Assembly (NCBI RefSeq): GCF_006575665.1
Contig: NZ_CP041253.1
Location: forward strand, 4,901,501-4,965,500
Length of the DNA: 64,000 bases
Direction: 5' to 3'
Source: Echinicola soli
Lineage (GTDB): Bacteria; Bacteroidota; Bacteroidia; Cytophagales; Cyclobacteriaceae
Below the pieces are notes generated by a model. That model ran no database searches, was not told the origin of the DNA, and worked only from the letters and a program-made list of their open reading frames with translations. How positions within the stretch are numbered: the first letter of the stretch is position 1; every line of letters starts with the position of its first letter. Below are positions 53,332 through 63,982 of the stretch, in pieces. The position numbers were made by a program, and so were the translations under genes.

Positions 53332-54417
53332 TTAAATATTATCCAGTTCGGGTACTTTCATTTTCTCAATATCCCAGTCGGCTTTCTTGGCTCCGGCGAT
53401 ATAGGCCGATTCCAAAAATCCAAGAAGGGCTGCACGTGGGTCGGTTGCTTTTAACAGATTGTTGTAGGTCAACAGCGCCATGGGACTGCCGTTACTGTCA
53501 ACCCATTGGGCCGTAGAAGGTATCAAAGGTTCCTGATCCACTCCTGAGGGTGACGGGTAGGTATATGAGTAGAAAGCAGGTTCGGGCATTTTTTCATCAC
53601 CTCCCCAAAAACCAAAACTGATGCACTCGTGCGAGTAGGCATCCTTGTCCGATATCCTGGCTTCTGCTGGCATAGCGGGTGCCTGCTTGCCCGAAAAGCG
53701 GGTCACAGCCAGATCCATGGAATGCCAGTAAAGATGTACCGGACAGGTTTTACCATAAAAGCGGCCGCTGAACTCTTTGAAAACACCATCTACCCACAGC
53801 AGAATTCGCCAGAAATTTTGCGTGTAGGTCTCTTCGTAGTGGTGGTATTGCGTGATTTGCTCAAATGGTTTACCAATAGTTACATCGTAGGGTTTATCCA
53901 GAATGGAAACGGAAATATTGAACCTCCTGAGGATTTCAGAAAGCTGCTGGTAGAAATCTGCCACGCTTGTTCCATGGAGCAAGGAGAAACCCGCAGCTTC
54001 CCCTTTACTGGTGCTCACTTCCAGTTGGTGCCGGTGCACATTGATCGTAATGTCAAAGGTATCCATTCCCTCATTGTAGGGGATGGGGCCGGTCGTGATG
54101 CCTTTGGTGGTCACATACTCGGTAACGTACCACCAATGGTTTTTGCGGGGGGTTGATTTCAAACGGATCTTTCCCATGATCTGTAAAAACAGGTGCAGGG
54201 TCATTTTCTTTTGTTCGTTTCCCTTGTAATCCAGAAGGGGCAATTGGGCTGAATGGTGCATAAAGAGATCGTATCTATAATTGCGAATGTAGGCTTCCCA
54301 TACGGCGGATTGGACGCAAAAAGCGCTCATTGGCCTGTGCGGGGAATTCCATGGCCGTTGTTGTCTTACTTTCAATGTCTCACTAACAAATCTACCATGG
54401 GTAACAAGATTTTGCAT
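53332..54417 (-). CDS. DUF5996 family protein
   Basis: A 361-residue cytoplasmic protein. From about residue 58 it follows the DUF5996 pattern: 'LHLFLQIMGKIRLKSTPRKN' then 'HWWYVTEYVTTKGITTGPIP', 'YTQNFWRILLWVDGVFKEF', 'CPVHLYWHSMDLAVTRFSG' and 'AYSHECISFGFWGG'. Function unknown. The first about 52 residues are not typical of the family; a Met at about residue 53 ('MHHSAQLPLLDYKG') would give a more usual N-terminus (start near 54261). It lies 21 bases after the Crp/Fnr gene and is probably under its control. Confidence 0.85.
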   Translation of the reverse strand: MQNLVTHGRFVSETLKVRQQRPWNSPHRPMSAFCVQSAVWEAYIRNYRYDLFMHHSAQLPLLDYKGNEQKKMTLHLFLQIMGKIRLKSTPRKNHWWYVTEYVTTKGITTGPIPYNEGMDTFDITINVHRHQLEVSTSKGEAAGFSLLHGTSVADFYQQLSEILRRFNISVSILDKPYDVTIGKPFEQITQYHHYEETYTQNFWRILLWVDGVFKEFSGRFYGKTCPVHLYWHSMDLAVTRFSGKQAPAMPAEARISDKDAYSHECISFGFWGGDEKMPEPAFYSYTYPSPSGVDQEPLIPSTAQWVDSNGSPMALLTYNNLLKATDPRAALLGFLESAYIAGAKKADWDIEKMKVPELDNI

Positions 54418-54438
54418 TGATGTATGATAAGAACTGCT

Positions 54439-55026
54439 TCATGATTTATTTTTGACCAACTCCCGACGCACCCGGCTTAAACTTTCCGGTGTTATCCCCA
54501 GGTACGAAGCTACCATGGTCTGCGGTACCCTTAAAAGAATGTCGGGGTAAGTGTCCACAAACTGCAGATAGCGGTCTTCAGCAGAGGCACTCAGCAGCAG
54601 GTTGATCCTTTTCTGTAAATGGCGGATGTGGTTGTGAAGCAGCCGGGTATTGAAATCTGTGAATTCGGGAATTTTTTTACACAGCAGCTGAATAAAACTT
54701 TCATCTATCATAGTTACCTGGCTGTCTTCCAGTGCCTGAATAAAATAGACAGACGGCTTATTGAAATAGGCACTTTCCCGGTCACTCACAATCCAGTTTT
54801 CAGGAGCAAAAGAAATAATATGTTCCTTTCCTTTCTTATCAACTGAGAATTGCCGCAACAATCCTTTTTCCACAAAAAAGCCATGCTTGCAGATTTCTTT
54901 TTCACGCAGAAGGTATTGGCCTTTTTTGATTTTTTTTACGGGGCATTTTTCTATGATTGACGAGATTTCCCTTTCGTCAATCATAAGATTTAAGCTCAAA
55001 TATGTCTTAAAATTGGTACTAATCAT
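54439..55026 (-). CDS. Crp/Fnr family transcriptional regulator
   Basis: A 195-residue regulator with an N-terminal cyclic-nucleotide-binding-like barrel (about 15-130, 'IKKGQYLLREKEICKHGFFV', then 'EKGLLRQFS') and a C-terminal helix-turn-helix ('VPQTMVASYLGITPESLSRV', then 'RREL'). There is no Cys cluster like Fnr and the cAMP-contact residues are not evident, so the ligand is open. This small form is widespread in Bacteroidota. It heads the minus-strand cluster reaching to the glutaredoxin and probably controls it. Confidence 0.9.
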   Translation of the reverse strand: MISTNFKTYLSLNLMIDEREISSIIEKCPVKKIKKGQYLLREKEICKHGFFVEKGLLRQFSVDKKGKEHIISFAPENWIVSDRESAYFNKPSVYFIQALEDSQVTMIDESFIQLLCKKIPEFTDFNTRLLHNHIRHLQKRINLLLSASAEDRYLQFVDTYPDILLRVPQTMVASYLGITPESLSRVRRELVKNKS

Positions 55027-56031: not shown

Positions 56032-57186
56032 TTATTTGGACATATTGCCCATTGGGTCTATGGTTTTTATACTCCCATCATTCAGATGTTCCAGCGACGC
56101 CATTTTTATATTCCTTAGATGGGTCTTCCCGGACAATTGGGTGTCGTGGTAGAACAGGTACCACTGATCGTCCACTTTTACTATGGAATGGTGATTTGTC
56201 CATCCCTGTACGGGCTCCAATATCACTCCCTGGTAGGTAAACGGACCATAGGGACTGCTACCCGTTGCGTAAGCGATATTATGCGTATCTCCCGTGGAAT
56301 AGGAGAAATAATAGGTCCCTGCATGTTTGTGTACCCATGCTGCCTCAAAAAATCGCCTATCATGATCTCCCGCTTTAATAGGCTCACCTCCTTTGTCCAA
56401 AATAATCACCTCCCGTGGTTCTTCCGAAAACTCGATCATGTTATCAGCCAATTTGGCTACTTTAGGAGCAATCGCCGGTTCATGATCTGCGGGTTCATCC
56501 GCATAGGGACTGTCACTGGTCGAAAGATATTTTCCTGTCCTCCATTTTTGGAGCTGCCCTCCCCAAATTCCTCCCCAATACATATAATACTCTCCTTGGT
56601 CATCCTTAAATACGGCCGGGTCAATGCTAAAACTACCCGATATAGGCCTATCCATGGGTTCAAAAGGACCACTAGGACTGGTAGACACCGCGACGCCAAT
56701 TCTAAAAATATCTGCCGTATCCTTAGCAGGAAAATACAGGAAATATTTCCCGTCCCTTTCGGCAGCATCCGGAGCCCACATTTGCCTTTTGGCCCATTTT
56801 ACTTCATTAACATCGAGCACCTTACCATGGTCCACTACCTCTGCGGTGGGGCTATCCATCGAATACACATGGTAATCCTTCATGTTAAAATGCCCGCCTG
56901 TATCATCCTCTTCCACTTCGGATTCCACGTCGTGGGAAGGATAAATGAATATTTTACCTTCAAATACGTGAGCGGATGGATCCGCCGTATAAGGTGATTG
57001 GATCAGTGGTTCATGAAGATAGGATACCTCCGTGGAATCCGCATTATCCTGAGTATCCTGTTCAACAGGTTTACTTTTGCAAGCCATCATCGTTGCAGCG
57101 GCCATCCAAAAGTACCGATGATGCTTAAATCGAAATGTAAACACCAAGGGTTTACCGATAATAAAATGAAAATTCGTTTTTCTCAT
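56032..57186 (-). CDS. GH43 family glycoside hydrolase, probable lipoprotein or exported
   Basis: A 384-residue five-bladed propeller enzyme. Catalytic landmarks of GH43 are seen: general base Asp in 'SPYTADPSAHVFEGKIFIYP' (about D69), the pKa-modulating Asp in 'SFSIDPAVFKDDQGEYYMYW' and acid Glu in 'DRRFFEAAWVHKHAGTYYFS'. The Trp-Ala-Pro-Asp step 'RQMWAPDAAERDGKYFLYFP' is also typical. GH43 covers beta-xylosidases and alpha-arabinofuranosidases. The N-terminus has a basic/aromatic stretch and then 'MAAATMMACKSKP', a possible lipobox, so it may be membrane-anchored. It lies downstream of the GH10 xylanase (152-base gap), supporting xylan use. Confidence 0.9.
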   Translation of the reverse strand: MRKTNFHFIIGKPLVFTFRFKHHRYFWMAAATMMACKSKPVEQDTQDNADSTEVSYLHEPLIQSPYTADPSAHVFEGKIFIYPSHDVESEVEEDDTGGHFNMKDYHVYSMDSPTAEVVDHGKVLDVNEVKWAKRQMWAPDAAERDGKYFLYFPAKDTADIFRIGVAVSTSPSGPFEPMDRPISGSFSIDPAVFKDDQGEYYMYWGGIWGGQLQKWRTGKYLSTSDSPYADEPADHEPAIAPKVAKLADNMIEFSEEPREVIILDKGGEPIKAGDHDRRFFEAAWVHKHAGTYYFSYSTGDTHNIAYATGSSPYGPFTYQGVILEPVQGWTNHHSIVKVDDQWYLFYHDTQLSGKTHLRNIKMASLEHLNDGSIKTIDPMGNMSK

Positions 57187-57338: not shown

Positions 57339-58520
57339 TTACTTGAAAGAAAGTTGACCTTGGAAAGCCTGTTGTATTTTGGTACCATTCTTATAGGTTT
57401 TCTTCAAATGCAACAATTTATCGAAAAGGTATTTTTTTAATCTGTAGTCTTGATCAAAAAACAGCGGATAAGCTGTCCTTCCTGGAATTGGCCAATTGTT
57501 CAGCCAACTGTCCTGGTCCCTTACGCCCCAAAAAGTCACCCTGTCTATATGGTCCTTATATTTCAGGAACAACTTGAAAATATCCCGGTACCTGTTGGCC
57601 AACATTTCTTTCAACTCATTGGGTAAGCCATTTTGATAAGGATCATATTGGGCTTCATAAGGGAAGTTGGCGTCTATATCAGCACCTTGGCGGCCACTGG
57701 GATTGGGCAATACGTCGATATCAAGTTCTGTTATGGAAATGTTGAACCCGCGGTCCACAATTTTCTGGATGGCCTCCTCCAACTGCCCTATGGTTGGGTA
57801 CTCCAGGCCCAAATGACATTGCATGCCAATACCATGGATTTCTACGCCCTCCTCGCGCATTCTTGAAACAAAGGACAGGATGCCATCAGTCTTCTTTGGT
57901 TTCCAAACATTATAATCATTATAGTACAATTCTGCTTGTGGATCGATTTTATGGGCAGCTTCGAACGCCAATTTTATAAAATCTTCTCCCAATACATTGA
58001 ACCAGGTTGACCGTCTAAATTGGCCATCATCTGTAAATGCTTCGTTGACCACATCCCATATGTCAATCCTTCCTTTGTAGCGACGCATTACCATTTGGAT
58101 ATGGCTTTTCATCAGGAAGGATAGTTCCTCACGTGACCTGCCCGTCCCATCTTTATGCTGAAAAACCCAATCAGGTGTTTGTTTATGCCATACCAGGGTA
58201 TGGCCAACCAAGTGACTATCCATACCTTCTCCCATTTCAACGTACCTATCTGCCCGATCAAAATTGAATCTGTCAGGCTCTGGGTGGATACTTTGCCATT
58301 TCAATAAATTCTCAGGGCTAAGGCTATTGAAATTACTCCTGAGTGGCACCATCAGCTCTTGGGACTGATTTTGGACATCACGACCGGATAATGCCGTTCC
58401 GATATAAAAATCTCCGGCAAACAGGTCTTTAATCCCTGATGTATTTTCAAAATTCCTTAAGGGTAAATAGATGCCATACCATATGACAGACAGTGAGATA
58501 GGGATGAGGTAAATTTTCAT
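57339..58520 (-). CDS. GH10 endo-beta-1,4-xylanase
   Basis: A 393-residue retaining xylanase. The GH10 barrel shows 'FNSLSPENLLKWQSIHPEPD', 'HLVGHTLVWHKQTPDWVF', the acid/base Glu in 'DIWDVVNEAFTDDG' (about E160) and the nucleophile Glu in 'NISITELDIDVLPN' (about E265), plus 'VTFWGVRDQDSWLNNWP'. A hydrophobic start ('MKIYLIPISLSVIWYGIYL') acts as a signal peptide or anchor. It would cut xylan backbones for GH43 and GH3 to finish. A promoter box is found upstream on the minus strand. Confidence 0.95.
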   Translation of the reverse strand: MKIYLIPISLSVIWYGIYLPLRNFENTSGIKDLFAGDFYIGTALSGRDVQNQSQELMVPLRSNFNSLSPENLLKWQSIHPEPDRFNFDRADRYVEMGEGMDSHLVGHTLVWHKQTPDWVFQHKDGTGRSREELSFLMKSHIQMVMRRYKGRIDIWDVVNEAFTDDGQFRRSTWFNVLGEDFIKLAFEAAHKIDPQAELYYNDYNVWKPKKTDGILSFVSRMREEGVEIHGIGMQCHLGLEYPTIGQLEEAIQKIVDRGFNISITELDIDVLPNPSGRQGADIDANFPYEAQYDPYQNGLPNELKEMLANRYRDIFKLFLKYKDHIDRVTFWGVRDQDSWLNNWPIPGRTAYPLFFDQDYRLKKYLFDKLLHLKKTYKNGTKIQQAFQGQLSFK

Positions 58521-58591: not shown

Positions 58592-59009
58592 CCTTCATCC
58601 AAGATTAGATAAAAACCCTACAAATCATTGCAATACATTCATTATCAGTATTATACATAATTATAATCGCTTACATGAAGAGAAAAAATCTATCTATACC
58701 GCTACCGTCGGCAGTTCTAGGCTATCCTAAAAAAGGAAAAACAGGAATAAACCGTGCAGATAGAACATGTAGAACGAGCCATTGTTATTGCGGATAAATC
58801 AAACCGCTAATAACCAGCGATTTATAAGTTTTATTACTTAAATAAAACTCACCTGAACACGCTGAGCAGCAATTCTCCCTCGGAGTCAAATTACCTTTTC
58901 AAGGTTAGTTATTAGGAATTTTTTACCTAAAGGCAAAATAGCATAGGTAGAAATCGTAGATATCACTATATTCAATACCACTTTATGTCATCAACCCAGC
59001 AAAATAACC

Positions 59010-60917
59010 GTGATTAGACTACTCTCTCATTTTCTATGGATATTTCTATCGATGTTTTTATTGGTATCGGCAAATGCAGCTGGCCAAGAACGATCTGTAA
59101 TTGATTTGCAAAAGGATTCCAAATGGATTCCTGAAATCATTCAACGTCTTGATTATTTCGTTGATACCACCAATACACTGGATATCAAAAAGGTGACCTC
59201 TCCTGGTTTTCAGGAAATGTTCAGGCACATATCTGACCCGCATATTGTGTATGAAAACATTGCTGATTTTATATGGATCAGGATGACAGTGGCCAACCAT
59301 CAACAGAACGACCATTACAGCTGGTATTTCGAATCCTGGGGATATGACCTTGATGAGATCACCTTCTATTCACCGCAAGGGGACAAAGGCTATTTTCCTA
59401 TGAAAGCTGGCTACGATTATCCCTTTGGAGACCGGGATATCCTGCATAAAAATTTCAATTACTTTCTCAATATCCGTCCTGGAGAGACCAAAACCTATTA
59501 TATTAAAATCAGGAGAAGCTATCCTTTGACCTTTTCGTTCCACCTACGAACCAATGATGAATTTATCTCCCATTCCCTAAATGAATACTTTTTTTTGGGG
59601 CTTTATTATGGCATTTTGCTACTCATTCTCACCCTTCACTTATACCTTGTGGTAAAATTAAAGGAGAATCTCTACCTGTTTTCCTCTATTTTGATCTTAT
59701 CCAGCATTTGGTTTTCCCTTGGTAGGGACGGCCTTGGATTCCAGTATTTATGGCCATCAGTCCCCGGCATTAACTCGATCACCAATTTCAGTAGCTTGAC
59801 GGAGCTATTTGTCATTATCTCCACCTTGCTTTTCTCTTATTTCTTTGTCCAAAAATATAAGAAGAACCCTAAACTCAGGTCCCTGACGTTGGCTGCCATA
59901 GCCATCATGGTGGGCATGTTCTTAAATCAAAATTATGGACTGGTCATGGATGCCATACCCTATATGGTCATATCCTTTCTGATCTTACTGGTTCCGTTCA
60001 CCATTGGCCTAAGGTCACTTCTTTCCATGGGCAGGTTTTCATTATCCTATACGTTGGCCTATGTATGTCTTTTTCTTATCATTATCCACAGCTATACCCG
60101 TGCCTTTGCACTGTTCAATGATCCTGTATTAAACTGGTATTTTGTCCACCCGGTCATCATTGTGGAAATGGTCCTGTTTTCCCTTTCCATCCTTAACCAG
60201 ATCAAATATTTACAGGAAGAGTATAAAAAGGCCAACCTGGAAAAAACAACTGCCCTGGAAGAAAAAAACCGGGTAACCTATGAAATGAACAACAAGCTCC
60301 ATCAAAAGGTAAAAGAGCGAACGGAGGAAATCGAGAACATGGCATCTGACCTTGCCCAGAAGAATGTTGCCCTCCAGACCACCAACCTCAAGCTTGAAGA
60401 GTTGAATACCCAGATTTCAAATATCAATCGATACCTGAAAGAAAACAACGACAAGCTTCGGAGCAATGTGGAAGAAATCACCAAGGACATGGCCTTGATG
60501 AAAGGATTTGAATTTGAGGATTTCAAAAAAGTCTTTCCGGACAAAGAAACTTGTCTAAAGTTCCTGTCAGAATTAAAATGGCAACAAAAATTCATCTGTA
60601 AAAAGTGTGGGTACAACAAATCCACTGAAAGCAGGAACCATGGACGCAGGTGCAAAAACTGTAATTATTATGAATCTCCTACCGCGGACACCTTGTTCCA
60701 TAAATTGAAATTCCCCATCGAAAAGGCCTTTTACATCCTGTATCTCTCCAACAGAAAGGATGTAGAGCTTACCCTAAATGAACTATCCGAAATTTTGGAC
60801 CTAAGAAGGGAAACCTGTTGGGCATTCAAGAACAAAATTGCCCAGGCCATGGAGAAAGTCGGGCATAATAAAGATCTCAGCGGTTGGGAAACCTTGGCTT
60901 TGGTCCATTTGGAGTAA
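59010..60917 (+). CDS. 7TM-DISM membrane sensor fused to an IS1595-type zinc-ribbon/HTH module
   Basis: A 635-residue receptor. In order: signal peptide (about 1-27), a periplasmic 7TMR-DISMED2-like beta-sandwich (about 30-180, 'DFIWIRMTVANHQQNDHYSW', then 'YFESWG'), seven TM helices (about 188-395), a coiled coil (about 400-500, 'LHQKVKERTEEIENMASDLA') and a C-terminal module (505-635). That module has 'FKKVFPDKETCLKFLSELKW', Cys pairs 'FICKKCGYN' (C530, C533) and 'RRCKNCNYY' (C548, C551), 'TADTLFHKLKFPIEKAFYIL' and a helix-turn-helix ('LTLNELSEILDLRRETCWAF'). These are the N-terminal parts of IS1595-family transposases; the DDE nuclease is absent. It starts with GTG (59010) before the signal peptide. 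A sensor that binds DNA directly is the inference. It lies between GH10 and GH3 on the opposite strand. Confidence 0.85.
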   Translation: MIRLLSHFLWIFLSMFLLVSANAAGQERSVIDLQKDSKWIPEIIQRLDYFVDTTNTLDIKKVTSPGFQEMFRHISDPHIVYENIADFIWIRMTVANHQQNDHYSWYFESWGYDLDEITFYSPQGDKGYFPMKAGYDYPFGDRDILHKNFNYFLNIRPGETKTYYIKIRRSYPLTFSFHLRTNDEFISHSLNEYFFLGLYYGILLLILTLHLYLVVKLKENLYLFSSILILSSIWFSLGRDGLGFQYLWPSVPGINSITNFSSLTELFVIISTLLFSYFFVQKYKKNPKLRSLTLAAIAIMVGMFLNQNYGLVMDAIPYMVISFLILLVPFTIGLRSLLSMGRFSLSYTLAYVCLFLIIIHSYTRAFALFNDPVLNWYFVHPVIIVEMVLFSLSILNQIKYLQEEYKKANLEKTTALEEKNRVTYEMNNKLHQKVKERTEEIENMASDLAQKNVALQTTNLKLEELNTQISNINRYLKENNDKLRSNVEEITKDMALMKGFEFEDFKKVFPDKETCLKFLSELKWQQKFICKKCGYNKSTESRNHGRRCKNCNYYESPTADTLFHKLKFPIEKAFYILYLSNRKDVELTLNELSEILDLRRETCWAFKNKIAQAMEKVGHNKDLSGWETLALVHLE

Positions 60918-61261: not shown

Positions 61262-63982
61262 CTAAAGTTCTGCAAGTTCCTGACTCCCTACGACCAGTAC
61301 TTCCCCACTCACTACCTCTGTGGATTCCGCGTCCAGATCACCGCTAAATCCAGGCTGCTCGCCCCCTACATGAACCTTGAACGTCCCCTCCTCGATGATC
61401 CTTTTGGACTGTTCATTGATCATGGAAAGCTGTCTGGGAGATAGGGTAAATTTCACCACTTTGCTTTCTCCCGGTTTTAGGTGTATTCGTTCAAATGCCT
61501 CCAGCTGCCGAATAGGCCTCTCGGTGGAAGCCTCTTGGTCTGTCAGGTACAACTGAATCACCTCATCTCCTGCCCTATCTCCGGAATTGGTGACCTTTAC
61601 ATGGACTGACATTTCTTCTCCCGCCTTTACCTGGGAGGGGACTGTCAGGTCCGAATACTCAAAACGAGTGTAACTGAGCCCATAGCCAAATGGATAGAGT
61701 GGTACTCCTTCAAAATATCGATAGGTTCTACCGCTCATATCATAATCTTCAAATGGTGGCAAATCCTCAACGGACCGATAATAGGTAATGGGCAATCTAC
61801 CAGCAGGGTTATAATCCCCGAACATTACGTCTGCAAGTGCATTTCCCCCTTCCTCTCCAGGATAACCGACACTGATGATAGCATCCACATTTTCCTTTGC
61901 CCAGTTGATGGCCATGGCACTGCCCGCATTTAATACCAAAATCACGGGCTTACCTGTTGCTTTCACCGCCTTGAGCAAAGCTTCCTGTTGGGCCGGCAGG
62001 GTGATGGTGGTACGGTCTCCTCCATCAAACCCCGGGGTGACTACATCCATGCTTTCCCCTTCCAGCCTTTGGGACAATCCCAGCACTACCACGGCCAAGT
62101 CGGCACTTTTTGCCAGTGCCACCGCTTCATCCATTTTGTCCACATCCGGTCTTGCCCATAGCGCCTGGGCAAGGGCATTGGTCTCATCACTGAAGTAGCT
62201 CACCTCAACTCTGTACCTTTTCCCCTCTTCCAGAGAAACTATATCGGTGGCATATCTGCCCCGGTGGATGGTGCCTTCCCCATTCGATATTTCCTTTCCA
62301 TTGATCCGTATTTTCATGCCCCTTTTTGAAAACACTCCGAATTCATATCGGCCGCTTGCCGGAGGCACCAGGTATCCTTTCCACTTCACCGAGAAATTAT
62401 CGACCAATTCTTTGGAGATGGGCTGGTGTTCCCATGAAAAATCAATTTGATCATCTATACGCTCCAAAACCGGTTCTCCCTCCCAATTTACATTATCGTA
62501 ATAGGAAGCTTCCAGTCCCTGACGTCCATCATCGGTTTCAAAATAGGCGGAAGGAATGGGCTTTAGGTTATAAAAACCTTCTGCAGGATGTGTACCTGCT
62601 GAGTACAGCACCTCCGCCTTTGGTCCCACTTTGTGCTTTATTCCCTCCAGAAAGGTGACCGGCTTTTTGGGGATGCCATGGTAATTTCCAAGAAGTGACT
62701 CTACGTGGTCCGCATTGGGACCTATTACCGCTATCCTTTTGACCTGATCCACCGATAAGGGCAGTAAATTATCCTGGTTTTTAAGCAGCACCATGCTTTT
62801 CTGGGCCGCTTGTCTAGCCAGGGTATTGTGCGCTTCCGAACAGACTATGCCAAAGGGAATCTGCGCAAAGGAAACCACATCTTCAGGATCAAACATCCCA
62901 AGTTTGAACCGGGCCAAGAACAATCTTTTCACTGCTGTATCGATTTCCTCTTCACTTACCAAGCTCTGGGCTACCGCTTCGGTCAGGTGGACATAATAAC
63001 TTCCACAATTCAGGTCACAGCCACCTGAAACCCCGATAGCGGCAGCTTCCGCTTCAGTATTGGCGAGGTGATGTCCTGTCTGAATGTCCTGAATAGCCCC
63101 GCAGTCCGACACCACGTAGCCTTCGAATCCCCACTGCTTTCTTAGCACCTCGTTCAACAGAAAATCATGGCCGCTGCATGATTCTCCCCTAAACCGGTTG
63201 TAGGCACCCATGATGGAATACACTCCTGCCTCCTTTACTGTTTTGCGGAATGCCGGAAGATAGGTTTCATATAGGTCCCGATCACTCACATCCACATCAA
63301 AAGAATGGCGAAGCGGTTCTGGCCCGGAATGGACTGCGAAATGCTTGGAGGTAGCAATGGTCTTTAGGTACTTTCCATCATATTCCTGCAATCCCTCAAT
63401 AAACCGGGAAGCCAACTCGCCGGTAAGGTAAGGATCCTCTCCGTAGGTTTCATGTCCCCTTCCCCATCGCGGGTCCCGAAAGATATTGATGTTGGGCGAC
63501 CAAAAATCCAGCCCGGTGTAAATCCCCCGTTTGCCATTTCGGATAAACTCATGGTGCTTGGCCCTGGCCTCATCCGAAATAACCGAACCTATTTCACTCA
63601 AAAGGTTTTTGTCAAATGAGGCAGCTACAGAAATGGACTGGGGAAAGACCGTGGCATACCCTGCCCTGGCCACTCCATGAAGGCATTCGTTCCACCAATT
63701 GTATTGGGGTACTTTCAGGCGTGGAATGGCCGGGGAATCATTCATCATTTGGCTGACTTTCTCCTCAAGTGTCATCTGATTTACTAAAATATCCACCCGC
63801 TCTTCGAAGTTTTTATCGATGTCCAAAAAGGAAAAATCAGGCTCGCTTTCTTGGGCATGGCTACCCATATTTCCGGTCATTAAGTATAACAGCAACCCTA
63901 GTTTAAAGAACCTAAATCTAATGGTACTAAAACAAAACCCTATTTTGGGTATTGGTGGTTTTTCTAAAGTTTTCATTTTCAT
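61262..63982 (-). CDS. GH3 family beta-glycosidase with PA14 insert, exported
   Basis: A 906-residue exo-enzyme, probably a beta-xylosidase or beta-glucosidase. Signal region about 26-43 ('LGLLLYLMTGNMGSHAQ'). The GH3 N-domain has 'VPQYNWWNECLHGVARAG', 'FRDPRWGRGHETYGEDPYLT', 'KTIATSKHFAVHSGPE' and the nucleophile Asp in 'GYVVSDCGAIQD' (about D293). The (alpha/beta)6 sandwich follows ('KSMVLLKNQDNLLPLS'), with a PA14-like insert (about 505-620, 'FSVKWKGYLVPPASGRYEFG'), and the chain ends with a fibronectin III-like domain ('AGDEVIQLYLTDQEAS'). The order and the 'NECLHGVARAG' motif favour the xylosidase-type branch. It completes a xylan set with GH10 and GH43. Confidence 0.93.
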   Translation of the reverse strand: MKMKTLEKPPIPKIGFCFSTIRFRFFKLGLLLYLMTGNMGSHAQESEPDFSFLDIDKNFEERVDILVNQMTLEEKVSQMMNDSPAIPRLKVPQYNWWNECLHGVARAGYATVFPQSISVAASFDKNLLSEIGSVISDEARAKHHEFIRNGKRGIYTGLDFWSPNINIFRDPRWGRGHETYGEDPYLTGELASRFIEGLQEYDGKYLKTIATSKHFAVHSGPEPLRHSFDVDVSDRDLYETYLPAFRKTVKEAGVYSIMGAYNRFRGESCSGHDFLLNEVLRKQWGFEGYVVSDCGAIQDIQTGHHLANTEAEAAAIGVSGGCDLNCGSYYVHLTEAVAQSLVSEEEIDTAVKRLFLARFKLGMFDPEDVVSFAQIPFGIVCSEAHNTLARQAAQKSMVLLKNQDNLLPLSVDQVKRIAVIGPNADHVESLLGNYHGIPKKPVTFLEGIKHKVGPKAEVLYSAGTHPAEGFYNLKPIPSAYFETDDGRQGLEASYYDNVNWEGEPVLERIDDQIDFSWEHQPISKELVDNFSVKWKGYLVPPASGRYEFGVFSKRGMKIRINGKEISNGEGTIHRGRYATDIVSLEEGKRYRVEVSYFSDETNALAQALWARPDVDKMDEAVALAKSADLAVVVLGLSQRLEGESMDVVTPGFDGGDRTTITLPAQQEALLKAVKATGKPVILVLNAGSAMAINWAKENVDAIISVGYPGEEGGNALADVMFGDYNPAGRLPITYYRSVEDLPPFEDYDMSGRTYRYFEGVPLYPFGYGLSYTRFEYSDLTVPSQVKAGEEMSVHVKVTNSGDRAGDEVIQLYLTDQEASTERPIRQLEAFERIHLKPGESKVVKFTLSPRQLSMINEQSKRIIEEGTFKVHVGGEQPGFSGDLDAESTEVVSGEVLVVGSQELAEL

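Follow-up and report, generated by a model that had tools for sequence, protein, structure and literature searches.

The window analysed here is a stretch of 64,000 nucleotides from the Bacteroidota species Echinicola soli (contig NZ_CP041253.1, positions 4,901,501 to 4,965,500), lying within a genome of 5.55 Mb on a single contig. Between a GH10 and a GH3 glycoside hydrolase (GH) gene, it carries an uninterrupted open reading frame (ORF) with a GTG start codon, whose 635-residue product joins a membrane sensor to the zinc ribbon and helix-turn-helix (HTH) that form the N-terminus of IS1595 transposases (Table 1). From the N- to the C-terminus, this protein consists of a hydrophobic helix, a DISMED2 ectodomain, a 7TM-DISM domain, a coiled coil, a Cys4 zinc ribbon and the HTH. 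As the extracellular and the membrane domain both score above the Pfam cut-off, it is a 7TMR-DISM receptor. The match to Pfam Zn_ribbon_IS1595 (residues 511-553; 8.6e-5, 22.9 bits) is just under the curated cut-off of 25.4 bits in the protein scan and reaches 27.9 bits, above this cut-off, in a six-frame search of the genome. Residues 567-625 align with positions 3-62 of 215 in the NCBIfam IS1595 transposase model (2.1e-5), with a score of 24.5 bits that is far under that model's cut-off of 75, which is set for a whole transposase. The four cysteines C530, C533, C548 and C551 are invariant in an alignment of 52 sequences. No catalytic DDE domain was found in the protein, and there is no space for one since the chain ends 10 residues past the NCBIfam match; no receptor scanned has more than 80 residues after the module. 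Likewise, the window protein yielded no histidine kinase or receiver domain at an accepted score with Pfam and NCBIfam, and no AraC output with Pfam.

A full-length AlphaFold2 model built from 52 sequences (mean predicted local distance difference test (pLDDT) 85, predicted template modelling score (pTM) 0.63) comprises a beta domain at about residues 31-181, membrane-domain helices from residue 182 and a single helix, residues 379-480, that continues out of the membrane domain. Confidence is low at residues 469-498 and mostly at pLDDT 85-90 in the zinc-ribbon/HTH unit at about 502-617; modelled alone from 46 sequences, this module reached a pLDDT of 85 and a pTM of 0.79. The ectodomain model resembles the periplasmic domain of RetS (3jyb; TM-score 0.72 by target length, Foldseek E-value 1.9e-3).

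Table 1 Features of the receptor gene, its predicted protein domains and its surroundings (window positions). Group A denotes the window-type loci.
Feature	Position	Strand	Basis
Receptor gene, 7TM-DISM with IS1595-type zinc ribbon and HTH output, 635 residues	59010..60917	+	ORF, Pfam, NCBIfam, homologues
7TMR-DISMED2 jelly-roll, predicted periplasmic, residues 46-180	59145..59549	+	Pfam 2.8e-26
7TMR-DISM membrane domain, residues 192-394	59583..60191	+	Pfam 7TMR-DISM_7TM 3.4e-20; helices in model
Coiled-coil linker, about residues 400-490, with KVxxRTxE motif	60207..60479	+	motif scan, model
Cys4 zinc ribbon, IS1595 type, residues 511-553 (C530, C533, C548, C551)	60540..60668	+	Pfam, alignment
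HTH, IS1595 type, residues 567-625	60708..60884	+	NCBIfam; model helices; weak HTH-fold matches
Candidate cis-element TTTGATTTATCCGCAATA, oriented toward the divergent GH10 gene	58786..58803	-	motif fitting; held-out p 0.007
GH10 gene, divergent neighbour, likely target	57339..58520	-	GH10 adjacent in 13/20 group A loci
GH43 gene, likely same locus	56032..57186	-	domain scan
GH3/PA14 gene, other side of receptor	61262..63982	-	also adjoins receptor at L043, L113

The arrangement is not a one-off but that of a large family with two sensor types. A homologue search with residues 400-635 returned 145 proteins, and 115 of the 120 listed carry a 7TM-DISM Pfam domain, a proportion which argues that the joining to this sensor is not due to chance. 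In the other five (P0101, P0104, P0109, P0117 and P0120), a Y_Y_Y domain takes its place, and a search started from P0104 gave 45 proteins, 29 of them with Reg_prop/Y_Y_Y; the module is thus also carried by a second, propeller-type sensor. Among the named genomes, at least 527 relatives are encoded, and the best 80, which are those most similar to the window protein and not a random sample, all have the Cys4 pattern. Altogether, the pattern was present in 81/81 receptor genes and 157/157 receptor proteins examined, and the architecture recurs in many genera. Across the order, 151 of 391 genomes gave a module match at E<=1e-25; seven of these match only at 1e-30 to 1e-34, and as the weaker matches were not itemised, a few of the 151 may hold transposases instead. 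In a phylum-wide scan, 32 of 392 genomes matched at 1e-15, many of them via transposases, and receptor-length frames occurred in 12 genomes. The source records give the receptors either generic names ('7TM-DISM domain-containing protein', 'signal transduction protein') or ones that mislead ('transposase', 'LadS'). One locus (L078:3683-7511) holds a tandem pair of module-bearing receptor genes that overlap by 11 bases.

Among the matches listed, the nearest named protein belongs to Echinicola rosea, with 98% identity over residues 400-635. The E. soli genome itself has three 7TM-DISM genes, namely the window gene, a gene (L002) for a 631-residue paralogue with the same tail and 31% identity to the window protein, and a gene (L005) whose product has a histidine kinase output. 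The KVxxRTxE linker motif is common to the window protein and this kinase, and its broader form [VIL]xxRT is found in 80 of 81 receptors, consistent with outputs having been swapped behind a shared linker. The same genome contains an IS1595-type transposase ORF of 318 residues (L006) and two decayed IS1595-type transposase genes (L003 and L004), whose DNA is 86-91% alike over the aligned pieces. It is also rich in glycan loci, with 77 SusD-like matches, 74 of them above the cut-off.

In a careful tree of the module, calculated from 68 hand-picked rows, all 43 receptors form one clade (ultrafast bootstrap (UFBoot) 100, Shimodaira-Hasegawa-like approximate likelihood ratio test (SH-aLRT) 94) that is nested among IS1595 transposases, and a quick tree, for which 133 rows were thinned to 103, is concordant (SH-aLRT 94 for the receptor clade). 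The transposases branch outside in steps, and the sister of the clade, on a long branch, is L025. This sequence (L144:1194-1607 in genome G160) is a stand-alone zinc-ribbon/HTH protein of 137 residues without a DDE domain. Given a single receptor clade inside the transposases, the simplest history suggested by the sequences is that the DNA-binding half of an IS1595-type transposase was captured once and became the module; because the tree was rooted on other IS1595 transposases, the most economical direction is that the receptor acquired it. As the alignment has only 125 columns, the inner order of the clade is unsure, including whether the propeller type arose from the 7TM type. The earlier note on this DNA had described a 7TM-DISM sensor followed by a coiled coil and the Cys4 ribbon and HTH of an IS1595 transposase without its DDE domain, and had proposed that this output was captured from a transposon. 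The domain matches, the invariant cysteines and the model confirm the former, and the position of the receptor clade supports the latter well.

The module is the best-conserved part of the receptor: over 1326 pairs, mean pairwise identity is 0.589 for the module, 0.405 for the coil, 0.344 for the membrane domain and 0.302 for the ectodomain. Rates of nonsynonymous and synonymous substitution (dN/dS) were tried on seven pairs, in five of which the module was saturated at synonymous sites. Both unsaturated pairs indicate purifying selection on the module (0.018/0.394 for L046/L048 and 0.016/0.145 for L090/L104), and in L090/L104 the module dN is no lower than that of the rest of the gene (0.006). 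Elsewhere, seven open, divergent IS1595-length paralogues occur in a single genome (L125-L131, genome G162), and in the proteins P0121-P0125 and the fragments P0126 and P0127, six of these seven named Membranihabitans marinus, the first two acidic residues of the catalytic set are substituted. Judged by their sequences, these paralogues look like a second, independent domestication.

The genomic context was assessed for the 80 named loci plus the window, divided into window-type loci scoring more than 400 bits to the window protein (group A, n=20, with L059 set apart) and the remainder (group B, n=61). For the background, 32 stretches located at round coordinates were taken from long contigs in eight family-bearing genomes, which gave 291 genes. 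A GH10 gene is directly adjacent to the receptor gene at 13/20 group A loci, 0/61 group B loci and 0/291 background genes, and SusC/SusD genes are directly adjacent at 5/20, 39/61 and 4/291, respectively. SusC/D or a listed glycan enzyme lies within two genes at 20/20, 42/61 and 12/291; SusC/SusD gives the less biased comparison, since the enzyme classes were picked after viewing the loci, from which their profiles were also built. The genes found at group A loci, GH10, GH43, GH67, GH115, esterase and GH3, make up a xylan set. At 36 of the 61 group B loci, the receptor gene is just upstream of, and codirectional with, susC-susD, and in this group a protein of a cluster whose one scanned member matches PF10091 ('putative glucoamylase') is encoded within four genes at 34 of 60 (L059 being placed in group A for this count). 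The wider family is found at loci combining SusC/SusD with the PF10091 protein, GH3 or GH16. Among 27 further receptor genes from numbered genomes, counted manually, 23 have SusC/D within four genes; these 27 include the host paralogue L132, L134 and L138, which repeat the named loci L118 and L115, and three chosen for a nearby motif. A Reg_prop/Y_Y_Y receptor gene directly precedes SusC-SusD at L213, and the order receptor, GH3, SusC, SusD is seen at five loci (L141, L143, L221, L224 and L230). The earlier note had considered that the gene might be found mostly away from glycan loci; the opposite is the case, as all 20 window-type genes lie near SusC/D or a glycan enzyme. Its suggestion of a role in xylan use fits the window subgroup, with its GH10, GH43, GH67 and GH115 genes, but not for the wider family, which is found at other polysaccharide loci. 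At L225, the receptor gene is followed by a pfkB-type kinase gene and, two genes on, by one for an ADP-ribosylglycohydrolase-family protein, without SusC/SusD, and L226 has the same gene lengths. In the window itself, a DUF5996 gene adjoins a gene with a cyclic-nucleotide-binding domain at 53332-55026, both on the minus strand.

Conserved elements precede the neighbouring genes. Motif fitting on the 36 gaps between receptor gene and susC in group B yielded tTgAaATCaATGTTTTTtatccGtaAAAAa, with a log-likelihood of 319 versus 113-121 for four shuffled sets. For group A, 12 of the 13 loci with a divergent neighbour (all except L052) were fitted; the resulting motif, TTTtATTTAAGCGCAATa, occurs in 11 of these 12 and has a log-likelihood of 94 versus 51-56 for five shuffled sets; in both fits the shuffled sets had fewer restarts than the real ones, which favours the latter. 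In a held-out test, the tested region and similar ones were left out of the fit each time. At p<=0.05, the group B element was recovered toward the target in 28/36 regions, on the other strand in 6/36 and in 6/102 control upstream regions, and the group A element, tested on all 13 loci, in 10/13, 2/13 and 5/54, respectively, the misses being L052, L060 and L043. The held-out window region gave p 0.007, with the site one base off. As the regions are partly related by descent, these p-values overstate independence. A first leave-out of group B (25/36 at p<=0.02, controls 2/101) was set aside because it had started from the matrix of all sequences. At loci outside the fit, after one near-copy and three loci lacking a codirectional gene next to the receptor had been excluded, the group B matrix scored in 10/23 toward the target versus 1/23 on the other strand, and in 7/20 after removal of three loci chosen for the motif. 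Furthermore, the group B element is significant at two of the five loci where GH3, not SusC, follows the receptor (L141 and L224).

The bare group B core is less informative. Allowing one mismatch, TTGAAATCVATGTTTTT is matched in 243 of the 391 genomes of the order and lacks specificity by itself, as some of these genomes do not have the module; among the matches listed, three sit 119-153 bp past a module match. Group A k-mers are weak: CGCTTA is found in 9/20 loci, none of the 25 most enriched 7-mers exceeds 9/20, the highest count that shuffled sequences give for 7-mers containing at least three G/C, and over whole group A loci the CGCTTA pattern matches inside genes and elsewhere too. The right half of the group B motif scored in 2/12 group A regions, equal to the opposite strand. 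An identity of the two elements, claimed by eye, was dropped after the group B matrix had scored in none of 19 group A regions. A descent of the elements from IS1595 terminal repeats was likewise rejected, the repeats at L028, L233 and L234 being unlike them by eye; repeats were sought around transposase relatives only, and none was clear at L231, the closest transposase locus.

Our reading of these sequence data, to which we assign a probability of roughly three in four, is that the window protein is a one-component transcription regulator that sits in the membrane and controls a polysaccharide-utilization locus. Its periplasmic jelly-roll would sense a saccharide, in the window subgroup probably a xylan fragment. 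In the modelled structure, the signal would cross the membrane domain and reach the cytoplasm along one continuous helix and coiled coil, which probably pairs two protomers and sets the spacing or activity of the zinc-ribbon/HTH units. These would recognise a DNA element in front of the adjacent target gene, here GH10 and elsewhere susC or GH3, and the bound receptor would most likely activate the target gene.

The 7TMR-DISM receptors were reportedly defined in a 2003 paper by Anantharaman and Aravind in BMC Genomics. The window protein shares with the RetS, LadS and SagS type the DISMED2 jelly-roll, the 7TM-DISM domain, an ectodomain model near RetS and, with the kinase paralogue L005, the linker motif; unlike their kinase or cyclase outputs, its own is of the transposase type. 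With IS1595 transposases, it is homologous along the zinc ribbon and HTH, but it lacks the DDE domain, is fused to a membrane sensor and is conserved beside glycan genes. The second receptor type has, by domain scans, the Reg_prop/Y_Y_Y sensor, which is the one used by the hybrid two-component systems of Bacteroidota polysaccharide loci. Like these, the receptors adjoin susC/susD; unlike them, neither the window protein nor the two propeller receptors scanned yielded a kinase, receiver or AraC output. InsA of IS1 is a soluble protein. It combines a zinc finger with an HTH and, according to the available sections of PMC12428005, represses transcription, so that this half of a transposase can affect transcription by itself, although InsA is encoded in the transposon and represses the transposon's own promoter. 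A DNA-binding output on 7TMR-DISM proteins is not unprecedented: the available sections of PMC8092284 describe ChiS-family domains as C-terminal DNA-binding domains on sensory proteins of Proteobacteria, including 7TMR-DISM proteins, whereas the receptors described here have a different, transposon-derived domain and belong to polysaccharide loci of Bacteroidota. According to the sections of PMC1592074 covered, signalling helices infrequently join HTH domains to signalling domains. In the literature searched, which included the available parts of PMC1592074, PMC5342196 and PMC3942029 and lay apart from the 2003 paper, we found no description of the receptor family.

Several observations weigh against a transcription regulator acting through these elements. 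The opposite strand also reaches the threshold in the above 6/36 held-out group B regions, and the group B matrix scores in 0/19 group A regions at p<=0.05 (controls 3/52). The group A matrix scores in 10/36 group B regions (opposite strand 0/36, controls 3/88) but at loci outside the fit in only 2/23, on either strand. In group B, 21 of the 61 loci lack SusC/D up to a distance of four genes, and at 16 of the 61 both SusC/D and the listed enzymes are absent; some of these loci are near contig ends. Moreover, the elements precede related target genes and may belong to another factor. Of the alternatives, all of which we regard as unlikely, the best placed is that the zinc-ribbon/HTH end regulates the glycan locus by binding a protein, such as RNA polymerase or a partner regulator, and not specific DNA; the homology of the module to the N-terminal half of a transposase and the conserved, oriented elements before the neighbouring genes argue against it. 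Marginally less probable is that the elements are promoter parts or sites of another regulator, and that the receptor has another regulatory target or controls itself alone. This would agree with elements of groups A and B that are not convincingly the same and with a bare group B core in genomes without the module, but control upstream regions of the same loci lack the elements, and the group B element recurs before GH3 at L141 and L224. It is very improbable that the receptor, as a tethered competitor of the transposase, controls IS1595 transposition amid incidental glycan genes: E. soli does have the transposase ORF L006 and the broken copies L003 and L004, and InsA offers a precedent, yet the context bias is strong and the inspected terminal repeats do not resemble the receptor-side elements. 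A recent, accidental and functionless fusion, conceivable in a genome with IS1595 gene fragments, is hardly credible: the architecture recurs across many genera, and a module conserved above the rest of the protein and low dN/dS in the two comparable pairs already contradict such a fusion.

Beyond the transmembrane regulator proposed for the window, we lean slightly towards the broader view that these receptors constitute a further class of regulators of Bacteroidota polysaccharide loci beside hybrid two-component systems and extracytoplasmic function (ECF) sigma factors. Its members would be one-chain membrane receptors whose IS1595 cassette was captured once, moved between unrelated 7TM-DISM and Reg_prop/Y_Y_Y sensors and spread over Cytophagales and some other Bacteroidota, with an own conserved operator in each subgroup. 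If true, this would explain the control of many polysaccharide loci in environmental Bacteroidota, 151 of the 391 genomes sampled in the order having a match to the module, and it would make the map from sensor to target readable because the likely target adjoins the receptor. It would also provide a clear bacterial case in which the DNA-binding half of a transposase was made a host regulator.
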